DNA of 48,367 nt from an uncultured Ruminococcus sp. (GTDB lineage: Bacteria; Bacillota; Clostridia; Oscillospirales; Acutalibacteraceae). The notes beneath the pieces are model-generated. The model saw only the letters and a program-made list of their open reading frames with translations. It made no database searches and had not been told where the DNA came from. Each line of letters opens with the position of its first letter. Position 1 is the stretch's first letter. Location of the stretch: positions 60,663 through 109,029 of the forward strand of contig CADBWP010000007.1 in the NCBI GenBank assembly GCA_902798365.1. Reading direction: 5' to 3'. Both the position numbers and the translations under genes were made by a program. Positions 17,631 through 48,105 of this stretch are shown here, piece by piece.

Positions 17631-18632
17631 TTATTCGTAATTTGCCGTAATGGTCGCGCCGTTGGTGAGCGCGCCATTTGCGGCATAGGTGTTGCCGTCA
17701 AGGTCGGTCACAACATTGAAACTCATAGTCGTTGAGGTAGTGCCCGCCTTGAGCGCCTCGTACTCAACATAAAGGAAATAGTCGCCCGGGTCGGTGTAGT
17801 TGTAGCCGTTGAGCGAGGAGCCGTTGAACTGAATCCTCTGGTCGAGTTTGTAGTTGATTATTCCGCCGTAAGAGGCAGGGGGGAGCAGCTTTGCGGATTT
17901 TACTTTTACATATGTTCCGTCGTAGTTGATAACGCCCTGGAAGTTGAGCATATCGTTGGGAACAAACAAAAAGTAGGTGCAGTAAATCGTGTCGCCAACG
18001 TTGTACTGCTGACCGTCGATGGTGAGCACCTTGCTGTCGTCGTTGTTTATAACACGCGTGGGCTTGGGAGCCGAGCTTTGCGAGTCGGCGCGGCTTGTCT
18101 GTCCCGATCCGCCGTTGTTGTTAGAGCCGCCGTTGTTATTGGAGCCGCCGTTGTTATTGGAGCCGCCGTTGTTGTTAGAGCCACCGTTGTTATTGGAGCC
18201 GCCGTTATTGTTGGAGCCGCCGTTGTTGTTAGAGCCGCCGTTATTATTGGAGCCGCCATTGTTGCCCGAGCCGCCGTTATTCGCGGAACCGCCGTTGTTT
18301 GCGCTGCCTCCGTTGTTCGAGCCGCTGTTGCCGCCCTGAGAGGTCTGACCGCCCGATTGCTGCGGAGAATCGGTCATTCCCTCCGGAGCCGAAACGGGCT
18401 GACCCTTGTCGTCCTTGATGATGTTGCCGTTTTCGTCTGTATAGACGCCGTTCACCACCCTGGTCACCACCTGGGTCTCGGTGATGATCTCGGTTTCAAC
18501 GGTGTCGCCGTCCGAGCCGGATTCCTCGCCGCAGCCCGCCAAAACGCCTGCGGTAAGAATGCACACCGCCAATGCTGCGGCAGCAGAGGCGCGAACCCTG
18601 CGCCCCGCGGAGAAGTATTTTTTGTAAGACAT
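17631..18632 (-). CDS. Lipoprotein with GGSNNN repeat linker and cohesin-like domain
   Basis: Surface lipoprotein of 333 residues. A basic N terminus and hydrophobic stretch end in VLAGC (lipobox cysteine about residue 34). After an acidic Thr/Val-rich segment comes a long flexible linker of about twelve hexapeptides (GGSNNN and variants, eight exact), then a C-terminal domain of about 140 residues starting near KVLTIDGQQYNVGDTIYCTY. The strand pattern, LNFQGVINYDGTYVKV, IQFNGSSLNGYNYTDPGDY and the final strands resemble the beta-sandwich of cohesins and related carbohydrate-binding folds; this is pattern recognition, not proven. It diverges from a dockerin-carrying CotH gene, a natural partner. 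ATG at 18632 has AAGGAAG upstream. Confidence 0.7.
   Translation of the reverse strand: MSYKKYFSAGRRVRASAAAALAVCILTAGVLAGCGEESGSDGDTVETEIITETQVVTRVVNGVYTDENGNIIKDDKGQPVSAPEGMTDSPQQSGGQTSQGGNSGSNNGGSANNGGSANNGGSGNNGGSNNNGGSNNNGGSNNNGGSNNNGGSNNNGGSNNNGGSNNNGGSNNNGGSGQTSRADSQSSAPKPTRVINNDDSKVLTIDGQQYNVGDTIYCTYFLFVPNDMLNFQGVINYDGTYVKVKSAKLLPPASYGGIINYKLDQRIQFNGSSLNGYNYTDPGDYFLYVEYEALKAGTTSTTMSFNVVTDLDGNTYAANGALTNGATITANYE
18108..18330. repeat. Coding tandem repeat of an 18-bp unit
   Basis: Roughly twelve 18-bp units encode the GGSNNN linker of the lipoprotein. Third-position differences between units (GTT/ATT for asparagine on this strand) show that the units are not all recent copies, but the array could still change length by slippage. 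Confidence 0.9.
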
Positions 18633-18696
18633 AACAGTCACTTCCTTAATAAATGCTTTTGACACACCTTCCAACCACGGCATGTCCTCAGGTAGT

Positions 18697-18725
18697 ATTA
18701 TAACAAAGCTTTGCAAAAAAATAAA
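18697..18725 (-). promoter_or_regulatory. Possible promoter of the cohesin-like lipoprotein gene
   Basis: Minus strand TATAAT at 18697-18702; the T-rich hexamer seventeen bases upstream (TTTATT) is a weak -35. The start codon is about 65 bases downstream. Confidence 0.5.
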
Positions 18726-18764
18726 GCATTATTTTAAATTTCTCAAAAATTTGGGAATATTCGC

Positions 18765-18793
18765 TTGCATATGTGAAGCTTACGTGATAAAAT
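18765..18793 (+). promoter_or_regulatory. Promoter of the CotH-dockerin gene
   Basis: TTGCAT (18765-18770), 17-base spacer, TAAAAT (18788-18793). The leader to 18855 is about 55 bases. Confidence 0.8.
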
Positions 18794-18854
18794 AATAATA
18801 ATAAATAATTTTCGTTATTTATGTAAAAAATTTGTAAAAAGAGGTGCATTTTCC

Positions 18855-21197
18855 ATGAAAAAGCTGATATCCGTTGTGCTCTGCCTGATATTATGCCTTT
18901 CGTGCGCGGCGGCAATACCTGCGGGCGCAGAGGAGACCGATCTCGGCGCTCCCACCGCCATGAACATAGGCTCGGCGCTGTATGTTCACGCTGTATCGGG
19001 CTCGGCAGATACCGAGGCGTGGCAGGAATGGCAAAGCCTGCACGACGCGAACAACACGCCTTATACCCCAACAAAAAAATATTTCTTCCTGCCCTCGTCG
19101 GCGTCGGATGATTCCGCGGATATCTACAACGGCTTCCCGTCGGCAGTCACTGTAAACGGAGTTTCCATTCCCTCGGGCGAGACCCGCGCGGTGAGCTACA
19201 GCAAGGGCGCAAGCTACTCGCTCAGAGCAGGAAACGCCAACTACACCATCACATTTATGAAATCAACAGCCGAGGCGGCGATTTATGTCAACAGCACTCA
19301 GGACTTTGACGGCGCCGACCTCATGGAGTATCTTAACGCCGACAAAAGCAACAGCGCTTCGGCAACAGGCGCCATTGTCAACGCAAAGGGCAAAATCGAC
19401 AATACCGCCATCAAAAAAATCAAGGGCAGGGGCAACACCACCTGGGACAAGGACAAAAAGCCCTACAACATCACCTACAGCTCAAAGGTTTCCATAGCCG
19501 GCATGGCAAAGAACAAAAAGTATTCTCTGCTTGCCAACTTCCAGGATGATTCGCTGTCGCGCAACCGCATCCTCTACGACCTTTCCGACGCCGTTGGAAT
19601 GCCCTACGCCTCCGATTCGCGCTATGTCGATTTTTACGCGAACGGCTACTACTGGGGCTCCTACCAGATGTGCGAAAAGGTAGAGGCAGGCAGCCTTGTC
19701 ACCGACGTTGACGACGAAGCCTATCTTGAGGACGACGGCGTAACCGTAAAGGCGGACTTCCCGTTCATAGCCGAGATAGACGCCTCCGCCGGTGCGGACG
19801 ATTACTACGTTACCACCAGCTTCGGCGTAAAGGTCACCATCAAGGCTCCGGAGATAGACCCGGGCAACCCCGGCTACGACGAGGTCAAGGCATATGTAAA
19901 GCAGAAGTTTGAAAATCTTCTCTCTAAATCGAGAGTAGCCACCAACGACCTGACCGAATATGCCGACATCGACTCGCTCACCAAGCTTTACCTGATAAAC
20001 GAGCTCGGCAAAAACTGGGATTCGGGCGTTTCAAGCTGCTTCCTCACCTACAAGCAGGACGAGGACGGAAACTACAAGTTCTTTGGCTCGCCCGTCTGGG
20101 ACTACGACAACTCGCTGGGCAACGCCGTTGGCGTGGGCAGCGACCTCAACCGCTTCGACGTTACCGACTATACACAGTACAGCGGCTGGTGGTGCCGTTA
20201 CAAGGATCGCACCCCCGGACAGAGCAGAACCTCCAACCTTATTTCAAACCTCGCCGTTCACAACCAGATAATGGCGGCGGCTCCGCGCATTTGGTTTGAG
20301 GAATTCATGCCTGCCATCCGCCATTTCAGCGGTGAAACAAACAACGCGGCGGCAGACCTCGACCTGTACAGCGCAGAAAAATACTATTCTCTTATAAACG
20401 GCAGTGCCGAAATGAACTACACAAGCGGCTGGCTGCTAAACACCGGCTCGTGGATAGCCGACCACTCAAGCCTAAAAAAGGCTGTCTTTAACCAAAAGAC
20501 CGGAGCTTATACGGTTTCGGGCAGCAGCATCTCCTATCAAAACACCTTTGAGGGCATGTTCAACTATGCACGCGACTGGATGACAAGCCGCGCGGCATGG
20601 CTTTCAAGCCAGTTCTATCCCGATTACGAATGCGGGCTTATCGACTTTGACGTAAACCTCAACGGCAGGACAGATATTTTTGACGCGACCGAAATGCAGC
20701 GTTTCCTTGCAGAATACTCCGCGCTTACCCCGTTGCAGTTTGAGATCGCCGACATAGACGGCAACGGCGTTGTAGATATCGACGACGTCACTTGTCTGCA
20801 AATGATACTCGCCGAATACACCTTTGCCGAGATATTCGGAGAAGACCCCGATCCAACTGAGCCGACCGAGCCGACCGATCCGACAGAGCCCAAGGACACC
20901 GTTACGGTAACCTTTACCGACGCGCTTGGCTGGGGCGACAACATCTGCATTTACTACTACAGTCAGTCGCAGGGAATAACCTCAAGCGACTGGCCGGGTG
21001 AGCATATGGCAAAGACAGGCGATTTGTTCACCTACGAGGTGCCGAACTGGGCTGAGTACATCATCTTCAACAACGGCGTGGGTACCGGTGCAAACAACCT
21101 TCAGACCCAGAACATACCGTTTGACGGTCAGCCCCATCACTATTACGCAACATCCGAGACAAACGACAAAGGCCGCCACGCGTTTGTTATCGAATGA
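18855..21197 (+). CDS. Secreted CotH kinase family protein with dockerin and CBM26-like module
   Basis: Exported protein of 780 residues. Signal peptide about 1-25 (KKLISVVLCLILCLSCAAA). CotH kinase-fold region about 150-590 with KIKGRGNTTWDKDKKPYNI and the metal-binding-like SPVWDYDNSLG. Two dockerin type I repeats follow (about 597-660): DVNLNGRTDIFDATEMQRFL and DIDGNGVVDIDDVTCLQMIL, each with calcium-binding Asp/Asn positions. After a PTEP-type linker (about 668-682) the C-terminal domain (about 684-780), with NICIYYYS, DWPGEHM, YEVPNWAEYIIFNNG and TQNIPFDG, resembles starch-binding module family 26. CotH proteins in ruminococci are known dockerin carriers. The combination points to a cell-surface complex acting near starch or other glycan. 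The ATG has AGAGGTG upstream. Confidence 0.88.
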   Translation: MKKLISVVLCLILCLSCAAAIPAGAEETDLGAPTAMNIGSALYVHAVSGSADTEAWQEWQSLHDANNTPYTPTKKYFFLPSSASDDSADIYNGFPSAVTVNGVSIPSGETRAVSYSKGASYSLRAGNANYTITFMKSTAEAAIYVNSTQDFDGADLMEYLNADKSNSASATGAIVNAKGKIDNTAIKKIKGRGNTTWDKDKKPYNITYSSKVSIAGMAKNKKYSLLANFQDDSLSRNRILYDLSDAVGMPYASDSRYVDFYANGYYWGSYQMCEKVEAGSLVTDVDDEAYLEDDGVTVKADFPFIAEIDASAGADDYYVTTSFGVKVTIKAPEIDPGNPGYDEVKAYVKQKFENLLSKSRVATNDLTEYADIDSLTKLYLINELGKNWDSGVSSCFLTYKQDEDGNYKFFGSPVWDYDNSLGNAVGVGSDLNRFDVTDYTQYSGWWCRYKDRTPGQSRTSNLISNLAVHNQIMAAAPRIWFEEFMPAIRHFSGETNNAAADLDLYSAEKYYSLINGSAEMNYTSGWLLNTGSWIADHSSLKKAVFNQKTGAYTVSGSSISYQNTFEGMFNYARDWMTSRAAWLSSQFYPDYECGLIDFDVNLNGRTDIFDATEMQRFLAEYSALTPLQFEIADIDGNGVVDIDDVTCLQMILAEYTFAEIFGEDPDPTEPTEPTDPTEPKDTVTVTFTDALGWGDNICIYYYSQSQGITSSDWPGEHMAKTGDLFTYEVPNWAEYIIFNNGVGTGANNLQTQNIPFDGQPHHYYATSETNDKGRHAFVIE

Positions 21198-46137: not shown

Positions 46138-47937
46138 TTATTCATTGCTGTCGTTGTTCTCGCTGTTATCGCCGTCGCCTTGGCTGCTGTCGCTGTCGCC
46201 GTTTTCGTCGTACTCAACGGGATTGTTAAGACCCGCCGAAACCTCAAGCACTATGGTGCTGCCTGCCTCAAGCTCCTCGGTGCCGTCGGGGTTCATGCCG
46301 ATAACATAGCCGTATTCGTAGTAATCGCTGTAGTTGAACTCGCCGATCACCACGTTAAAGCCCTCGTCCTCAAGCACCTTTTGGGCGTAGTCATAGAAGA
46401 AGCCGATAACGTTGGACGGATAATACTTGCCCTCGCGCTTTGTTTCGTCGGGAGCGGTGGTTTCCTCGCCCGGAGCGGTGGTAGCGGGCGCCTGAGATGC
46501 CGCCTGGGTAGTAGCTTGAGCGTCCTGTGTGGCAGCCTGAGTGGCTGCGGTGTCGGTTTGGGAGTCCTTGTTGTCAAACCAGCCGAAGAAGTTGTTTTGC
46601 GACGCATACACGCCAAAGCCCACCAGCGCGGCAAGAAGCACCAGGGCTATAATAAACGCGATTATGGGACCCTTGCGGCGACCCGATTCGGGGGTCTGGT
46701 CGTCGTCTTCGTCGTCGGTGGGGCGGTAAAAGGCGTTGTCCTTGTAAGAGCCGTCGCCGTAATCCGTGTCGTCGTCATAGTTGTCGGGTGCGGGCTCGTC
46801 GTCAAAGTATTCGCCAAAGTCCTTGCTCTCGGCATTTTTAACGTCCTTTATGTTGAACACCTTGGTTTGCAGCTTGTAGTCATCAAACACGCGGTTATCC
46901 ACTTCGTCGCCGGGCTCCTGAGCGGAAGCCTGCGGACGCTGTCTTCTGCTTGCGCCGGTAAGGGCGGGACCCTCGGCAACGGGCGCGGCGTGCTTGGGAG
47001 CCTCCTTTTGCTCGGGAGCCGAAACCTCGTCAAACTCGTCAAAGGCGTATTCCTCAAACACATTGCTGTCAAAGCTGGTGTTTTCGGGCAGCTTAACCGC
47101 AGCCTTGGGCTTTGCGTGCGGCAAAAGCTCCGATTTAATCGAAGCGAGAGCGTTTTTAAGGTTGCCGGCGTTTTTCCAGCGGTTTTTGCCGTCGGGCTGA
47201 CAGGCTATCACAATAACGCTCTTAAGCTTTTCGCCGCCCTCGGCAGGAGCCGTAACGGACGCTCCCGACATGCGCTTTTCAACAGCCTGCTCGCGCGTTG
47301 TGCCGTCGCCCTCAAAGGGCAGCCTGCCGCCGTTTGCCAGCGAATACATAATAAGTCCCAGCGAATAAATGTCGGTGGTGTAGTCGGGCTGCTCGCCGCG
47401 ATAAATCTCGGGCGCGGTAAAAGACAGGTCCTCCGAGCTGCTCTCAAACTCGGTAAAGCCGCCAAGCTTGCAGCCGTCGTCGGTCATATAGATGTTTTCG
47501 GGCTTAAGGTTGCCGTGGAACATGTTGGCGCTCTCAAGCTTTTCAAGCAGGCCGCTCATGCTCAGACCGAAATCCACGATCTCGTTTTCGGTGGGCTTGC
47601 CGCTCATGACCTCGGCAAGCGTGGGAAGCTCCTCGGTCAGAATATACAGCGAAGCCCTGTTTTTGGACGGAACGTTTTCAACGCAGGCGTCAATATAGTT
47701 GCTTACGCCGCGCAGGTTTATAACGCTTTTTACAAAAGCCGCTTCGTCGCTCAGATAGGTGGCGCTGTCGCCGTTGTAGTCCTCGCCCTCAAAGCAAACA
47801 TGGGTGAGCACCGCCTGAACGTCGGAGCCGTCAAACTCGGTTTTGCCCACGCGGTAGGCAGGAAAACCGTTTTTGTCGGGCAGAGCCGAAATCACCTTCC
47901 AGGATTCCAGCTGCTCGGGTAATTTGAGCTTTGACAT
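46138..47937 (-). CDS. PASTA-domain protein with a degenerate (pseudo)kinase domain
   Basis: 599 residues in the layout of the PknB/PrkC cell-wall sensor kinases: cytoplasmic kinase-like domain (about 1-265), acidic linker (about 270-415), one membrane helix (KGPIIAFIIALVLLAALVGF, about 424-443), TQA-rich extracellular stalk (about 455-500) and one PASTA domain (about 505-568, YPSNVIGFFYDYAQKVLEDE to IVLEVSAG). The catalytic residues are lost: no glycine-rich loop or beta-3 lysine, the HRD motif reads HGN (in FHGNLKPENIY), and DFG is replaced by GGF (LGGFTEF). APE is kept (FTAPEIYRG). It should bind muropeptide or lipid II outside but not phosphorylate. ATG at 47937 with AAAGGAG upstream. Confidence 0.9.
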   Translation of the reverse strand: MSKLKLPEQLESWKVISALPDKNGFPAYRVGKTEFDGSDVQAVLTHVCFEGEDYNGDSATYLSDEAAFVKSVINLRGVSNYIDACVENVPSKNRASLYILTEELPTLAEVMSGKPTENEIVDFGLSMSGLLEKLESANMFHGNLKPENIYMTDDGCKLGGFTEFESSSEDLSFTAPEIYRGEQPDYTTDIYSLGLIMYSLANGGRLPFEGDGTTREQAVEKRMSGASVTAPAEGGEKLKSVIVIACQPDGKNRWKNAGNLKNALASIKSELLPHAKPKAAVKLPENTSFDSNVFEEYAFDEFDEVSAPEQKEAPKHAAPVAEGPALTGASRRQRPQASAQEPGDEVDNRVFDDYKLQTKVFNIKDVKNAESKDFGEYFDDEPAPDNYDDDTDYGDGSYKDNAFYRPTDDEDDDQTPESGRRKGPIIAFIIALVLLAALVGFGVYASQNNFFGWFDNKDSQTDTAATQAATQDAQATTQAASQAPATTAPGEETTAPDETKREGKYYPSNVIGFFYDYAQKVLEDEGFNVVIGEFNYSDYYEYGYVIGMNPDGTEELEAGSTIVLEVSAGLNNPVEYDENGDSDSSQGDGDNSENNDSNE

Positions 47938-48105
47938 TTTTCTTTCTCCTTTATTGTCGGTTTTTCTTTTCATATTTTTATTATACACAGTCATTATATC
48001 ATATACATGAAAATATTTCCACTATTTTTTAAAAATAAACAAAAATTTTTCCAAATAAGAAATAAGAGGGCAGTATTAAAACGCAACAGCGTTCCGAAGG
48101 TGGTT
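47938..48105 (-). other. AT-rich upstream region of the pseudokinase gene
   Basis: No gene. On the minus strand two TATAAT boxes occur near 47979-47998 (in GTGTATAATA and GATATAATGA), but neither has a good -35 hexamer at the right distance. The rest of the segment to 48105 shows nothing recognisable. Confidence 0.45.

Follow-up and report, generated by a model that had tools for sequence, protein, structure and literature searches.

A predicted membrane-anchored single-cohesin protein and its divergent CotH-dockerin neighbour in an uncultured Ruminococcus sp.

The locus described here lies in a 48,367-nucleotide stretch (the window) of an uncultured Ruminococcus sp. (contig CADBWP010000007.1) and consists of two divergent genes, one encoding a lipoprotein with a single cohesin and the other a secreted protein with a CotH kinase fold, a dockerin and a CBM26 module. 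Both were found where a first-pass annotation had placed them (Table 1). The combination of an anchored receptor with a CotH-dockerin protein is well supported by the domain identities, the folds, a conserved divergent pairing and a dockerin that is constant in the complete neighbours. With moderate confidence, the lipoprotein is regarded as a monovalent membrane-anchored scaffoldin that displays the CotH protein and probably other dockerin proteins.

Domains of the two proteins

The C-terminal beta-sandwich of the lipoprotein, previously described as cohesin-like, is identified as a cohesin by family profile and predicted structure. The profile (A1) matched the PDB entries 7uvg (E 2.7e-9), 7urp (7.6e-7) and 2y3n (0.016). 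The structure prediction that had been proposed as a check gave a confident model with a cohesin beta-sandwich fold, closest to the R. bromii Sca5 cohesins and not an unrelated family. PF00963 matches four of five members of this cohesin family and misses the window copy, which is not among the 14 PF00963 matches (E up to 10) of its own genome; Pfam alone would have overlooked it. Since a primary scaffoldin carries several cohesins per chain and the lipoprotein only one, it is described as monovalent. Pfam detected no starch-binding module in it.

The N-terminus of the lipoprotein has a positive charge followed by a hydrophobic stretch and L-A-G-Cys34, presumably a lipobox. Read in this way, the cohesin is joined to a surface anchor, as in an anchoring scaffoldin, and the protein is predicted to be lipidated and located at the surface. 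The lipid anchor proposed in the first-pass annotation agrees with the relatives: among 33 CotH-adjacent cohesin proteins, the window protein counted, 27 begin with a lipobox-like sequence (strict in 10, looser in 17; MTKC of L104 is doubtful), and six (L119, L157-L161) have a strongly hydrophobic, transmembrane-like N-terminus. In the sub-clade of the CotH tree formed by these six, a transmembrane helix at the N-terminus appears to have taken the place of the lipobox, and CotH remains the divergent neighbour; serine and lysine are abundant in several of its tethers.

A segment resembling ETQVVTxVVxGVYVDENGN follows the lipobox directly (about 18405-18530, minus strand) and is kept in many orthologues. 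In some form it is common to most lipobox-bearing orthologues, and the remaining tether varies freely. The DNA coding for the GGSNNN tether of the window protein is an array at 18109-18299 with an 18-bp period and 10.6 copies.

The 780-residue plus-strand protein comprises, in order, a signal peptide, the CotH kinase fold, one dockerin and CBM26. The CotH domain (PF08757, E 6.7e-25) and CBM26 (Pfam, E 9.6e-12) are each identified by both family sequence and fold, and the Pfam families confirm the architecture first proposed, in which the "two dockerin repeats" are the two calcium loops of one dockerin. The GRGN..W..KK.., D.S..RN and WDYDNS stretches of the CotH domain are largely invariant in relatives; the acidic motif did not align to the Bacillus cereus structure 5jd9. 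A beta-rich domain without a Pfam match precedes the CotH fold (residues about 39-137; 18969-19265, plus strand), and its model has block pLDDT values of at least 90 save one block at 77. The dockerin scored 22.3 bits against PF00404 in one scan and 28.3 bits in a genome-wide search (cut-off 22.9), and was matched at E 9.7e-25 by a dockerin profile of its own genome that contains the window copy. Two 12-residue calcium-binding loops, as read from the sequence, and the helices following them mark it as a type I dockerin.

Conservation and genome setting

The divergent pairing is conserved: 31 of the 90 genomes searched within the genus have it, as does the R. bromii-like genome G148, whose CotH neighbour lacks CBM26. 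The cohesin domain was searched for in 148 relatives, 90 of them of the same genus, and was matched in 72 genomes, all within the genus; a CotH region match (E up to 1e-30) was found in all 90 genus genomes, paralogues included. Adjacency was compared between 67 cohesin places in 66 genomes and 74 CotH places. One cohesin place was taken per genome (two for G006), 66 of the 72 matching genomes are represented, and the CotH list excludes lower-identity rows and some second copies. CotH was adjacent at 32 of the 67 cohesin places, in 31 genomes, always divergently and with 673-961 bases separating the matches. The pair is retained with cohesin identity down to 27% and with differing flanking genes between groups. 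Two sets of relatives' loci overlap (L069 and L085, for example, agree in length and in cohesin place) and are not independent.

All 31 complete adjacent CotH proteins carry a dockerin and 10 carry CBM26 (the partial neighbours L107 and L108 are outside this count), so the constant unit is the anchored cohesin plus CotH-dockerin, and CBM26 is accessory. The search for CBM26 used only the window copy as query, which leaves unlike modules uncounted (one was seen by eye in L110); in L093 the CBM26 match falls outside the CotH frame. The starch-binding-like module of the first-pass annotation is thus present in the window protein and is not a fixed part of the system. Tandem CotH-dockerin genes, one copy with CBM26 and one without, stand by the anchored cohesin in L095 and L074. 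In L099 (2822-5872) and L101 (3841-5934) CotH is absent, and another large dockerin protein is encoded convergently beside the cohesin lipoprotein.

The genome from which the window derives (G000; 2.03 Mb, 86% complete) has 54 dockerin matches (E up to 1), 14 cohesin matches besides the window copy (E up to 10) and five CotH matches. Its cohesin proteins include one of 1406 amino acids that has three cohesin matches and, by eye, further cohesins and a membrane segment at the C-terminus; short proteins with one cohesin, which by eye also end in a membrane segment; and proteins combining cohesin and dockerin. The minimal scaffold first suggested is too small a picture of this repertoire. G148 (L136, L145) and G000 (L230, L231) each encode two more short proteins with one cohesin and, by eye, a membrane helix at the C-terminus. 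A second dockerin class in G000 (L021, L024, L026, L033-L035, L193), with A[KR]DRI.LTR..A..W helices where the main class has DATxIQRYLAEY-like ones, suggests at least two cohesin-dockerin specificities in this genome.

A search of 161 genus genomes with an R. bromii Amy16 fragment matched G148 at 97% identity. This places the window and an R. bromii-like genome in one genus; G148 is probably R. bromii or close to it. The Amy16 catalytic region has four matches in G000 at 32-40% identity, and each has a dockerin match on its own contig and strand in an equally long frame, a pattern consistent with an amylosome-like system. An amylosome setting of the pair, as raised in the first-pass annotation, is thus plausible from the genus and the amylase-like matches; the proposed link through the CBM is not constant.

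The features of the locus are summarized in Table 1. Promoter-like sites between the two genes are consensus matches only. Elsewhere in the window, a protein with a kinase domain and a PASTA domain is encoded at 46138-47994 (minus strand).

Table 1. Features of the divergent locus (positions in the window)
Feature	Position	Strand	Description
Single-cohesin lipoprotein gene	17631..18632	-	333 aa (amino acids) from ATG 18632; stop codon within coordinates
Cohesin domain	17634..18035	-	about residues 200-333 of lipoprotein
Tether, Gly/Ser/Asn-rich	18036..18530	-	about 165 aa; starts with conserved segment ETQVVTRVVNGVYTDENGN, then GGSNNN repeats
Putative lipoprotein signal peptide with lipobox L-A-G-Cys34	18531..18632	-	motif read from sequence
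Intergenic stretch upstream of both divergent genes	18633..18854	.	222 bp
Secreted CotH-dockerin-CBM26 protein gene	18855..21197	+	780 aa
CotH kinase-fold domain	19266..20627	+	residues 138-591 of predicted model
Dockerin module, two Ca-binding repeats	20643..20819	+	about residues 597-655
Pro/Thr/Glu linker, dockerin to CBM	20846..20890	+	tandem repeat 20848-20890
CBM26 starch-binding-type module	20907..21194	+	residues 685-780

Proposed role and competing explanations

In the proposed mechanism, a lipid-modified N-terminus would hold the scaffoldin in the membrane, and the long flexible tether would cross the wall and present the C-terminal cohesin outward. The dockerin of the secreted CotH protein would plug into a cohesin of an amylosome- or cellulosome-like system, the adjacent anchored cohesin being its likeliest and probably not its sole partner. 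By analogy with the families concerned, attachment of the CotH-dockerin protein, and probably of other dockerin proteins, would be calcium-dependent. As a result, the CotH kinase, and here also the starch-binding CBM26, would be displayed on the side of the complex that faces the cell.

Several observations weigh against this proposal. Lipidation and localisation are a reading of a motif, and G000 has further cohesins that the CotH dockerin could use. At 35 of the 67 cohesin places the anchored cohesin occurs with no CotH gene adjacent. Two other CotH matches of G000 (C25, C11) have a frame length equal to that of a dockerin match, and their nearest cohesin match is at least 9.4 kb away. Among 17 other, non-adjacent CotH proteins, 10 carry a dockerin and two CBM26; the comparison of adjacent with non-adjacent CotH gives a Fisher p of 0.0003, which is not an independent-sample value, the 17 being hand-picked and the genomes related. 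Within G000, the nearest relatives of the CotH dockerin are main-class dockerins with the same helix residues, and it is in this sense not private.

The last point bears on the dedicated receptor of the first-pass annotation, a lipoprotein cohesin that would bind the neighbouring CotH dockerin and little else. The conserved divergent adjacency and the dockerin in every complete neighbour speak for it, and the CotH dockerin is somewhat more divergent than most in G000 (mean distance rank 37 of 51). A first distance-matrix test of cohesin against neighbouring dockerin also gave a partial correlation of 0.352 (permutation p 0.0002, 31 pairs). However, given the CotH domain, the neighbouring dockerin reached 0.328 and an amylase-dockerin control from the same genomes 0.317 (28 of 31 pairs), with a bootstrap interval of -0.20 to 0.23 for the difference. 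The control comprised 30 regions, 28 of which yielded a dockerin; there was no match in G052. Alignment A2 excludes L076, L077, L079, L080, L081 and L083. The sub-groups split, at 0.202 versus 0.43 for the control without the insert group and 0.401 versus 0.115 without the transmembrane group. As the amylase dockerins correlate equally, the test was discarded as evidence that the cohesin and the adjacent dockerin co-evolve privately, and it gives dedicated binding no support. A single-residue insertion in the cohesin (..PG[YD].. versus ..GG..) and loss of the usual G-D start in the dockerin are concordant in all 31 pairs (10 with, 21 without); these traits were chosen post hoc from the alignment, and with no more than two changes of each on the CotH tree the concordance has no statistical weight. 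A dedicated pair is consequently judged unlikely; the anchored cohesin may bind the neighbouring CotH dockerin, but probably not that dockerin alone.

It is quite possible that the lipoprotein is a general anchoring scaffoldin comparable to R. flavefaciens ScaE or clostridial OlpA. It would bind the main enzyme-type dockerins or the dockerin of an adaptor scaffoldin, CotH would dock as the enzymes do, and adjacency would reflect shared regulation only. The persistence of the cohesin without CotH, the closeness of the CotH dockerin to the main class, the G000 proteins that carry cohesin and dockerin together and the other dockerin gene convergent in L099 and L101 are all consistent with this explanation, which leaves unexplained, however, why it is CotH, of some 50 dockerin genes, that recurs beside the cohesin across changing contexts. 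Coincidental neighbourhood through vertical descent, with no functional link, would accord with all 72 cohesin-matching genomes belonging to one genus out of the 148 relatives searched; retention of the pair at 27% cohesin identity and despite changing flanks, and a dockerin in every complete neighbour, make it very unlikely.

A surface phosphorylation module, in which the docked CotH kinase would phosphorylate tether serines, or neighbouring scaffoldins or enzymes, and so regulate amylosome assembly or release, is very unlikely. A serine-rich tether as CotH substrate has no comparative backing: mean serine content is 0.203 in 33 adjacent and 0.192 in 13 non-adjacent proteins, so adjacency lends this idea no support.

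The R. bromii orthologue may already carry a name, Sca4, in which case the receptor itself would not be new, and what is unreported would be limited to its lipid anchor and the CotH gene beside it. This identity is conceivable but doubtful. The defining paper for Sca4 is reportedly Ze et al. 2015, in which the Sca4 cohesin is said to have been assayed. G148 has three short single-cohesin candidates, and by eye only the CotH-paired one has no membrane helix at its C-terminus; the other two nevertheless remain candidates. According to published accounts, R. bromii has six cohesin modules, and Sca3 and Sca4 are pictured in cell-free complexes (PMC9112005, PMC5814915).

Relation to known systems

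Breakdown of resistant starch by R. bromii relies on cohesin-dockerin complexes, and the surface anchors described are sortase-type scaffoldins, Sca2 and Sca5 (PMC5814915); the known cohesins number six (PMC9112005). A cohesin conserved on a lipid or membrane anchor would add another way to hold enzymes at the cell, near the membrane. CotH modules are tabulated among cellulosomal proteins (PMC6083626), where their role is not clear yet and structural and kinase roles are named (PMC12484212). The recurrent CotH-dockerin neighbour would provide a concrete candidate system for the role of CotH kinases in cellulosome-like complexes, one that, should G148 be representative, is directly testable in R. 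bromii itself.

No report of a lipid-anchored cohesin beside CotH was found in the literature searched, a weak negative. The word CotH is absent from the main texts of PMC5814915 and PMC9112005, the latter mentioning a lipoprotein only for Bacteroides, and from that of PMC3672088 (Vodovnik et al. 2013), which is cited for CotH in a review. A 2024 survey (PMC11557425) has a "single-cohesin" class with function unassigned, and its main text never uses the words lipoprotein or lipobox.

The window protein resembles such single-cohesin proteins and the non-SLH anchoring scaffoldins in having one cohesin and a surface anchor; it differs from the survey's anchor examples (LPxTG, LysM, C-terminal transmembrane, Cu-amine-oxidase-like), among which, in the part available, the lipobox does not appear. 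The nearest cohesin structures, by profile and fold, are those of R. bromii Sca5 (7uvg, 7urp). Sca5 combines a pair of cohesins with X25 modules, which bind starch, and a sortase signal (PMC9112005), whereas the window protein has one cohesin and a putative lipid or membrane anchor at its N-terminus. The likeness to the R. bromii amylosome extends to the genus and to a dockerin that adjoins CBM26, as in Amy16. From the B. cereus spore-coat kinase CotH (5jd9) the window CotH differs in being part of a secreted, multi-domain protein, with 13% identity in the structural alignment; by sequence profile only 5jd9 residues 45-131 aligned. It shares the CotH module with cellulosomal proteins such as CseP and Cthe_0044, and is set apart from them by CBM26 in 10 of the 31 neighbours and by the conserved, divergently encoded anchored cohesin.

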